Positions 7,933 through 10,111 of a stretch of DNA of 64,000 nucleotides are shown one piece after another; positions within the stretch are counted from its first letter, which is position 1; every line of letters begins with the position of its first letter. A program made the translations under genes and the position numbers. A model generated the notes under the pieces. That model had not been told where the DNA came from. It searched no databases and worked only from the letters and a program-made list of their open reading frames with translations. The DNA is from Stenotrophomonas sp. 24(2023) (GTDB lineage Bacteria > Pseudomonadota > Gammaproteobacteria > Xanthomonadales > Xanthomonadaceae). The stretch is taken from NCBI RefSeq assembly GCF_030913365.1, contig NZ_CP133160.1, positions 434,001-498,000 of the forward strand, in the 5' to 3' direction.

Positions 7933-9834
7933 TTACGCGCCCTCGGCGTGCAGCCGCTCGATGAAGGCCTGGACGCTCATGCTGCCCAGGTCCTCGCCGG
8001 AACGCGTACGCACCGCCACCGCGCCGTTTTCCTTTTCGCGGTCGCCAATGACCACCAGGTACGGCACGCGCTGCAGCGTGTGCTCGCGAATCTTATAGCC
8101 GATCTTCTCGTTACGCAAATCGGCGTTGACCCGGAAGCCTTGATCCGCAAGGGTTTTGGTCACAGCCGAGACGTATTCAGCCTGTGCATCGGTGATGTTG
8201 GCCACCACCACCTGGGTCGGCGCCAGCCAGGTCGGGAACTGCCCGGCGTGGTGCTCGATCAGGATGCCCAGGAAGCGCTCCATCGAACCGACGATGGCCC
8301 GGTGCAGCATGACCGGGTGCTTTTTCTGGCTGTTCTCGTCCACGTACTCGGCGCCCAGGCGGCCCGGCATCATGAAATCGACCTGCATGGTGCCCAGCTG
8401 CCAGGTACGGCCGATGGCGTCCTTCAGGTGGTACTCGATCTTCGGGCCGTAGAAGGCGCCCTCGCCCGGCAGTTCCTGCCACTCCACGCCGCAGCTGGAC
8501 AGCGCCGAGCGCAGCGCGCCTTCGGCCTTGTCCCAGGTGGCGTCGTCGCCCAGGCGCGATTCCGGGCGCAGGGCGATCTTGATCTGGATCTCCTCGAAGC
8601 CGAAGTGCCGGTAGACCGCCAGCGCCTGCTGGTGGAAGGCGGTCACTTCCGATTCGATCTGGCTCTCGGTGCAGAACACGTGGCCGTCGTCCTGGGTGAA
8701 GCCGCGCACGCGCAGGATGCCGTGCAGCGCGCCGGACGGCTCGTTGCGGTGGCACGAACCGAATTCACCGTAGCGGATCGGCAGGTCACGGTAGCTGTGC
8801 AGGCCCTGGTTGAACACCTGGACATGGCCCGGGCAGTTCATCGGCTTGACCGCGTAGGTGCGCTTCTCCGATTCGGTGAAGAACATGTTGTCCTGGTAGT
8901 TGTCCCAGTGGCCGGACTTCTTCCACAGGCTCACGTCCAGGATCTGCGGGCAGCGCACTTCGCCGTAGCCGCTGCTGCGGTAGACCTTGCGCATGTACTG
9001 CTCGACCACCTGCCACAGCGCCCAGCCCTTGGGGTGCCAGAACACCAGGCCCGGGGCCTCTTCCTGCAGGTGAAACAGGTCCTGCTGCTTGCCGATGCGG
9101 CGGTGGTCGCGCATCTCCGCTTCTTCGATGCGCTTGATGTACGCCTCGAGCTGCTTCTTGTCGGCCCAGGCGGTGCCGTAGATGCGCTGCAGCTGCTCGT
9201 TCTGCGCATCGCCACGCCAGTAGGCACCGGAAATGCGGGTCAGCTTGAAGGCCTTCAGGAAGCGCGTGTTCGGCACGTGCGGGCCGCGGCACATGTCCAC
9301 GTATTCCTGGTGGTAGTACATGCCCATGGCCTGGATGTCCTCGGCCATGTCCTCGATCAGGCGCAGCTTGTAGTCCTCGCCACGGGCCTTGAAGATCTCG
9401 ACCACCTCGGCGCGCGGCGTCATCTTCTTGATGACGTCGTAGTCCTGGGCGATCAGCTCGCCCATGCGCTTTTCGATGGCGGCCATGTCGTCCGGGGTGA
9501 ACGGGCGCTCGGAATAGATGTCGTAGTAGAAGCCTTCGGCAATGACCGGGCCGATGACCATCTTCACGTCCGGGTACAGCTGCTTGACCGCATGGCCGAC
9601 CAGGTGGGCACAGGAGTGGCGGATGATCTCCACGCCCTCCTCGTCCTTGGCGGTGATGATGCGCAGGCTGGCATCGCGCTCGATGACGTCGCTGGCATCG
9701 ACCAGCACGCCATCGACCGCACCGGCGATGGTGGCCTTGGCCAGGCCGGCGCCGATCGACTGGGCGACGTCCATGACGCTGGGGGGATTTTCGAATTCGC
9801 GGCGGCTGCCGTCGGGAAGGGTGATCGTGATCAT
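7933..9834 (-). CDS. thrS: Threonine--tRNA ligase
   Basis: A 633-residue class II synthetase that charges tRNA-Thr and edits Ser. Domains in order: TGS domain ([27 protein letters not shown], residues 2-60), the editing/SAD domain with the zinc-type [16 protein letters not shown] motif, the catalytic core (motif 2 near [22 protein letters not shown]; zinc-binding CPGHVQVF), and the C-terminal anticodon-binding domain ([13 protein letters not shown] to the end). Start MITITLPDG is the family start. It heads the thrS-infC-rpmI-rplT-pheST-ihfA cluster; a Thr-codon leader peptide and a terminator lie just upstream. Confidence 0.98.
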
Positions 9835-9901
9835 CGCAATGGCTTCAGGCTGGGCCCGCGGGGCGGGCTGGAATGCGGTGCCGGGCCGGAGCCCGGGCAA
9901 T

Positions 9902-9922
9902 AAAAAAGCGCCACGTGGGCGC
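9902..9922 (-). terminator. thrS leader terminator (attenuator)
   Basis: On the minus strand GGCGCC-type arms (GCGCC at 9918-9922 and GGCGC at 9908-9912) close a 5-base loop and run straight into six T and ATT. It lies between the Thr-rich leader peptide and thrS. The upstream segment CGCCACG (9937-9943) is exactly complementary to the 3' side (9909-9915), giving an alternative pairing that would destroy the terminator. Confidence 0.72.
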
Positions 9923-9948
9923 CTGGAACACAGGGCCGTGGCGGCAGG

Positions 9949-9975
9949 TCAGCGGTGGGCGGTGGTAGTGCTCAT
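9949..9975 (-). CDS. thrS leader peptide, eight residues with three Thr codons
   Basis: A tiny open frame coding M-S-T-T-T-A-H-R then TGA, with three successive threonine codons (ACT ACC ACC). It ends 24 bases before the competing arm and terminator that precede thrS. Ribosome stalling on the Thr codons when charged tRNA-Thr is scarce would be expected to favour read-through into thrS. No strong ribosome-binding site is seen, which weakens the call. The role is inferred from arrangement; leader-peptide attenuation itself is well established for amino-acid operons of proteobacteria. Confidence 0.55.
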   Translation of the reverse strand: MSTTTAHR

Positions 9976-10035
9976 GTCGCACGCTCGGCCGGCGCAGGGC
10001 GCGGGCCACCTTGTTCCAGGAAGGCTGTGCCCACG

Positions 10036-10064
10036 ATCTTAAACCAGCGCGCGACAAAGCCCAA
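10036..10064 (-). promoter_or_regulatory. Candidate thrS promoter
   Basis: On the minus strand TTGGGC (10059-10064) and TAAGAT (10036-10041) are separated by 17 bases. Transcription would start near 10029, about 55 bases before the leader peptide. The boxes are only partial matches to the sigma70 consensus. Confidence 0.35.
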
Positions 10065-10111
10065 GCCAGCCTGCCACACCGCCTGAATGGCCAGGCGCTG
10101 GCGACCCCAAA

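Follow-up and report, generated by a model that had tools for sequence, protein, structure and literature searches.

Leader-peptide attenuators of the trp/thr/his type are classically found at proteobacterial amino-acid operons and at pheST, and in Firmicutes thrS is under T-box control through direct binding of uncharged tRNA-Thr. A survey by Lopatovskaya et al. 2010 reportedly treats attenuation of amino-acid and aminoacyl-tRNA operons and may list thrS, and for that reason we do not claim a first report. The thrS leaders of two other bacteria offer points of comparison. In E. coli, according to the available text of the source (PMC3858243), ThrRS binds hairpins in the thrS leader, a translational control with a ribosome-binding site that is split by a hairpin. 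In Streptomyces lividans TK24, thrS is preceded by thrL, a leaderless ORF for a threonine leader peptide of 18 aa with two Thr, and the available text of that study describes no clear Rho-independent terminator (PMC8079986). Within the literature searched, itself available in part, thrL is the sole thrS leader peptide that we met. Given these two precedents, as far as the available text describes them, the kind of control considered here is already known. The combination of a thrS attenuator with a conserved split start site in the present lineage was not met in the available parts of the literature searched, outside which the survey of Lopatovskaya et al. 2010 lies.

We describe here a locus of Stenotrophomonas sp. 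24(2023), situated in a 64,000-nucleotide stretch of DNA (the window), in which thrS is preceded by a threonine-rich mini-ORF and an intrinsic terminator. The best reading of this arrangement, at a probability of roughly 0.77, is a ribosome-mediated, threonine-dependent transcription attenuator of thrS. It draws on the parts themselves and how well they are conserved, on the P2 helix, on the association with thrS and on a fold switch in silico. All of the leader parts, and thrS, lie on the minus strand of the window:

10036 to 10064, minus strand: promoter-like sequence seen by eye, TTGGGC (10064-10059) and TAAGAT (10041-10036) with 17 nt between them
10012 to 10020, minus strand: 5' UTR segment CCTGGAACA, exact 9-nt complement of TGTTCCAGG at 9930-9922
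10007 to 10012, minus strand: SD-like AAGGTG of the leader ORF, conserved in the alignment
9987 to 10007, minus strand: P2 hairpin, GGCC-C-GCGC/CCT/GCGC-C-GGCC, between the SD-like AAGGTG and the ATG, from covariation
9973 to 9986, minus strand: conserved box GAGCGTGCGACATG, 5' of and including the leader start, from sequence conservation
9949 to 9975, minus strand: leader ORF MSTTTAHR, 27 nt, ATG AGC ACT ACC ACC GCC CAC CGC TGA
9969-9961, minus strand: Thr codons of the leader ORF
9931 to 9943, minus strand: candidate antiterminator strand CGCCACGGCCCTG, able to pair with the 5' arm and the 3' arm of the terminator
9902 to 9924, minus strand: intrinsic terminator from the terminator scan, AGGCGCC/CACGT/GGCGCTT plus T run, AGGCGCCCACGTGGCGCTTTTTT
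7933 to 9834, minus strand: thrS, threonyl-tRNA synthetase, 633 aa

Like the classical attenuators, this leader has a short ORF of cognate codons, a terminator before the gene and a putative antiterminator strand just after the ORF. It departs from them in that the gene concerned is thrS, in that the ORF is only 6-9 aa long with Thr from codon 3, in the conserved hairpin and box between the SD-like sequence and the start codon, and in an antiterminator strand that pairs with both terminator arms. A T-box likewise lets uncharged tRNA-Thr stop or allow thrS transcription, but senses the tRNA directly. S. lividans thrL, likened to our leader by its description in the available text, is also a Thr leader peptide before thrS. 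The E. coli thrS operator, as the available part of its source presents it, concerns the same gene as in the window and likewise has a hairpin that splits the ribosome-binding site; it is however translational and positioned beside the thrS start, whereas the window has a leader ORF and a terminator in front of the gene.

The preliminary description of positions 9902-10064, which do cover the element, had reported an eight-codon MSTTTAHR frame with three consecutive Thr codons and, before thrS, a GC stem with six T. Both are found as described, the frame at 9975-9949 on the minus strand and the terminator at 9924-9902 with its T run of six at 9907-9902; this is the sole terminator-like site listed on the minus strand between leader and thrS. 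The complementarity that had been pointed out is exact, with CGCCACG (9943-9937) matching CGTGGCG (9915-9909), a segment that overlaps the terminator 3' arm. The promoter-like sequence stands in part: it is visible by eye and its TTTAAGAT recurs in close relatives, but TTGGGC-17-TAAGAT is absent from the output of the consensus promoter scan. Judged from the sequence, transcription would start near 10029. At 96% identity, the window thrS matches a locus of Stenotrophomonas maltophilia, and thrS is present in all 61 genomes searched, the host genome included. In several relatives the thrS leader is immediately preceded by a tRNA gene, tRNA-Val GAC as judged by eye (L011, L016, L024, L027, L028, L042, L061, L180-L182, L192, L195), unlike in the window, where no tRNA gene occupies that position. 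The isolated leader fold is of ordinary stability (z -0.60), so that it is by conservation, not stability, that the leader rises above chance level.

We gathered 110 thrS loci, of which 109 had readable upstream DNA, and found leaders in them with the box AGNGTGYGACATG as search word, allowing up to two substitutions. The box occurs in 83 of the 109 upstream regions, one of these being a chance match in Halomonas (L048) that was dropped. The 82 leaders gathered in this way, through thrS alone, amount to 58 distinct ORFs, in which codon 3 is Thr without exception (ACT in 55, ACC in two, ACG in one) and codon 4 is Thr in 49. Adding 56 leaders from matches to an RNA model of the element (R1, below) gives 138 in all; because R1 includes codons 3-4, we also give the counts without the leaders that it chose. 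The full set comprises 81 distinct ORFs of 6-9 aa, with Thr at codon 3 in 81/81 and at codon 4 in 71/81. Synonymous Thr codons are used, and across the 138 leaders codon 2 is variable (15 different codons), as are the later codons. The alignment of relatives proposed in the preliminary description has thus been run, and in it the Thr codons, the stop codon and the terminator are kept while codon 2 and the later codons vary. Among 300 dinucleotide-shuffled upstream regions, one contains a Thr mini-ORF with a terminator within 320 nt of thrS; the occurrence of this pair before thrS is not chance. One genus of the host's family (G351) has a terminator before thrS and no recognisable Thr leader (L199).

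Beyond what had been described, the leader begins within a conserved 49-nt element made up of the SD-like AAGGTG, the covarying P2 hairpin and GNGTGYGACATG. Between its end and the thrS start are 130 nt, which include the terminator. In 64 aligned sequences the GG of AAGGTG is invariant and its T and final G are kept at 90% or above, whilst 96.7% of P2 cells are paired, seven of the eight P2 pairs show two-sided changes and the P2 loop varies; none of 500 shuffles reaches P2 on any of five measures. Reading 5' to 3', GAGCGTGCGAC sits between the hairpin and the leader ATG. Among 104 distinct upstream sequences, all found with the box as search word, its form G-N-GTG-Y-GAC is invariant except at N and Y (N is C in 82, T in 19, A in two and G in one). 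L063, which is truncated, was left out of alignment A1, and L151 out of A2. Relatives that lack the hairpin (L040; L192, L195) read GAGGTGGCACATG, placing GAGGTGG a few bases from the ATG, a comparison that points to AGGTG as the ribosome-binding site and to P2 as an insertion. AAGGTG is accordingly our candidate for the ribosome-binding site of the leader. The want of a strong site, previously named as a weakness, is therefore answered in part: AAGGTG (10012-10007) may serve, but it is set apart from the ATG by the covarying hairpin.

Other structures considered around the leader start were set aside. A helix GGTGG/CTACC closing the element has no pair with a two-sided change and does not exceed shuffles. 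A hairpin from the leader fold that places the ATG in its loop (GTGC/GCAC) was dropped as codon 2 varies freely. For an NGU anticodon mimic in the GNGTGY box, N can be any base, but by eye no stem puts NGU in a loop, and the mimic was likewise rejected.

In a search of 398 genomes of the host's order, the RNA model R1 has a match in 244; the E value is 0.0018 in one of these (G109) and 1.1e-6 or better in the other 243. The matches take in the host genome and 21 others of its genus, many genomes of a second family and two of a third; among the 20 non-matches listed (134 further), the only members of the host's family are G351 and G361. Second matches, found in five genomes, are weak. In the class as a whole six of 274 genomes match, three of which are members of the order and three at chance level. 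thrS lies directly downstream at all 56 strong-match loci (55 distinct places), and the 12 loci without thrS are all weak matches. Of the Rfam covariance models, only those for tRNAs reach gathering score in the window, and on 9830-10110 there are chance-level matches only, with no leader family among them, Thr leader included. Nor does the T-box model appear among the gathering-score matches of the window or the weak matches of 9830-10110.

In a lenient scan an intrinsic terminator follows the leader ORF in 112 of 119 unique leaders, the seven without one being L013, L022, L025, L122, L129, L131 and L133. U-tracts are weak in L005 and L010, both from Xanthomonas, and in L134 and L141, and the terminator calls of L004, L009 and L019 are poor or misplaced. 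Where the terminator has decayed while ORF, hairpin and box are kept (L005, L010, L129, L131, L133, L134, L141), the leaders come from Xanthomonas and a genus like it.

The two exclusive folds that had been proposed are predicted in the window. In the model, the ribosome masks the 15 nt that follow the first base of its P-site codon, and the predicted probability of the terminator is 0.78 when the ribosome is at the stop codon versus 0.00 when it is stalled at codon 3, 4 or 5. The corresponding means over 107 leaders are 0.87 (stop) versus 0.39 (stalled at codon 4), those of shuffled controls are 0.87 versus 0.68, and in 43 of the 107 the terminator is still dominant with the ribosome stalled at codon 4. 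When the set is cut to 31 leaders that are mutually dissimilar, the equilibrium switch no longer exceeds that of shuffles (p 0.26), and we therefore rejected equilibrium switching as a general proof. Duplexes between a leader's own antiterminator strand and terminator are stronger in these 31 than permuted ones (-16.9 versus -15.6 kcal/mol, p 0.003), the own pairing beating that with foreign terminators in 23 leaders and that with foreign strands in only 18. When the 3' arm has yet to be made, capture of the 5' arm exceeds the shuffled mean in 25 of the 31 (p 2e-4), with p 0.05 reached in two of the 31 taken singly. Duplexes of single leaders have p <0.05 in 20 of 109, the value for the window's own being 0.17. 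L004, L009 and L019, with ambiguous or weak terminator calls, were left out of the single-leader duplex test, and these three together with L008 and L024 out of the ribosome-fold and 31-leader tests. As the pairing tests are positive and the equilibrium test is null on dissimilar leaders, we regard the modelled switch as convincing in the genus and only probably real beyond it. A weakness of the antiterminator reading is the position of the antiterminator hairpin in the window: its end lies one base short of the T run, and it might itself act as a terminator.

Taken as an attenuator, the leader would work as follows. RNA polymerase would start near 10029, and a ribosome would load at AAGGTG, reach the ATG at 9975 across the folded P2 and translate M-S-T-T-T-A-H-R. 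With charged tRNA-Thr plentiful, the ribosome would proceed to the stop codon and cover about ten bases beyond it; the CGCCACGGCCCTG strand could then not pair fully, the terminator would form and thrS would stay untranscribed. With charged tRNA-Thr short, the ribosome would stall on ACT ACC ACC, leaving the CGCCACGGCCCTG strand to capture the terminator arms and the polymerase to read on into thrS. We infer leader translation, ribosome stalling and read-through from the layout of the locus; the leader probably lets the cell make more ThrRS when threonine-loaded tRNA is short. The marks of a classical ribosome-mediated attenuator that sequence can show are in place: a short ORF with cognate codons is present, an intrinsic terminator lies between it and the first gene, although decayed in some Xanthomonas, and a mutually exclusive antiterminator is predicted in silico for the window, with mixed results beyond the genus. 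Conservation and the predicted folding of the window lend support to the earlier proposal that this lineage controls thrS by transcription attenuation.

For an untranslated leader the predicted probability of the terminator is 0.99 when the 5' UTR from 10019 is included, and the antiterminator forms instead in a fold started at 10010. In this model, pairing of CCTGGAACA with TGTTCCAGG may favour the terminator when the leader is not translated. Among 32 close relatives, a set defined by locus number, the 5' UTR complement spans 3-9 nt and is at least 7 nt long in ten. Long-range 5' UTR pairing as a general feature was rejected, the excess over permutation elsewhere being small (72 leaders, p 0.013).

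For the other families of the order we sampled 20 of 24 same-order genomes, leaving out G047, G051, G052 and G056, of which G047 and G056 carry R1. An automatic scan finds a Thr mini-ORF and terminator before thrS in 15 of the 20, a sixteenth Thr leader (L182, MTRVTLSNH) is seen by eye and four genomes are without any. These leaders differ in sequence (MTRT..., MCQQATTTTTP, MKTTTKN, MASTLTTVD and others). Those of MTRT... type have a hairpin of their own between SD-like sequence and ATG, with two-sided changes in two of seven pairs (11 sequences). By eye, the leader ATG of L185, L188, L189, L191, L193 and L196 follows a -10-like hexamer by 6-7 nt, a spacing that suggests attenuation driven by leaderless leader peptides in several of the order's families; the thrL of S. 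lividans, in the available text, is leaderless too. Thr-Arg-Thr is written ACG CGA AC(C/T/G) in otherwise different leaders (L179-L181, L183, L184, L188, L191, L196, L059).

The other families of the class are represented by 80 genomes, drawn from 113 in which thrS was matched. The Thr-leader scan gave one match there, overlapping a tRNA-like sequence (L245), and missed the Thr leader of L236 (MTPRTQEITLPAF). A hairpin with a U-NGU-A/G loop precedes thrS in 37 of the 80, followed in 32 of these by CACT, like the tRNA-Thr anticodon arm. Across L201-L280 the wobble base of NGU in this tRNA-Thr-like hairpin is not constant, and ACATG or CATG often flanks the hairpin on its 5' side (similar to GACATG at the window leader start). 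Among the 20 order members the loop occurs once. A loose scan finds it in 34 of the 138 leaders, L002, L003, L007, L009, L012 and L023 included, and of the 12 matches listed 11 are the terminator hairpin; the window's own terminator lacks the loop, as do 104 of the 138. The anticodon-like operator as a whole, defined by a narrow pattern (hairpin plus CACT) that was written after viewing the sequences and that misses the Halomonas hairpin of L048, is found in 0/138 leaders and 0/20 other order members. That this pattern finds none agrees with the earlier view that E. coli-type control is not used here.

L236 comes from genome G530. When 150 genomes of the order to which G530 belongs are scanned for the word TTATGACACCGCGAACT with at most one mismatch, 13 contain it, against two of 150 for the reversed control word. 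Thirteen of its 14 places are upstream of thrS, encode MTPRT... and continue with a GC stem and T run. An MTPRT... leader with a terminator before thrS is thus seen in another order (L281-L293, L236, L044), and in L281-L284 (4/13) the leader's CGCGAAC is the exact complement of GTTCGCG just after the stop codon.

The leader could instead be one through which ThrRS represses, binding P2 and the box or the terminator hairpin in the manner of the E. coli operator, with the Thr codons secondary. Such repression would fit the hairpin that splits SD-like sequence from start codon, as the available text describes for E. coli thrS (PMC3858243), the U-NGU-A/G loops of 34 of the 138 leaders (loose scan) and a box kept over two families although a simple attenuator does not require its start site to be conserved. 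We nevertheless think it unlikely, for the P2 loop varies, the operator form with CACT is confined to the other families (32/80 versus 0/138 leaders and 0/20 order members), the loop is lacking in the window's terminator and in 104 of the leaders, and a terminator stands within the 130 nt that separate the element from the thrS start. More tentatively, and with the odds clearly against it, the leader may be a two-input device that took over from the class's tRNA-mimic operator: its Thr codons would sense charged tRNA-Thr, and the split start site (GNGTGYGACATG box, P2, SD-like sequence) would sense a second input, ThrRS or some other translation factor, and set how often the leader is translated.

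In other bacteria a terminated leader can have functions in trans, and the ORF-terminator unit might chiefly serve as a small RNA gene or as a terminator close to the promoter, its ORF not sensing threonine. The persistence of ORF and box where the terminator has decayed agrees with this, but Thr at codon 3 in 58/58 ORFs gathered without regard to Thr, along with different Thr leaders before thrS in other families, ties the unit to threonine and thrS, and we rate this account a shade lower than repression by ThrRS. It is highly improbable that the Thr codons are accidental, ACTACC being kept in a conserved RNA for its pairing with GGTGG. That pairing is possible in 93.4% of cells, but the helix shows no two-sided changes, does not rise above shuffles, and Thr recurs in leaders of different sequence.

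With threonine-dependent attenuation as the preferred reading, a single bacterial class apparently controls the essential gene thrS by two RNA mechanisms that are not related to each other, with a tRNA-like operator serving in many of its families and a leader-peptide attenuator in the host's order. The 49-nt element is conserved, structured, without an Rfam match and directly testable. Within the order, the leader start takes the form of a plain SD, of two different hairpin-split sites or of an apparently leaderless start. These several forms, together with the two mechanisms, constitute a natural experiment on the evolution of charged-tRNA control.
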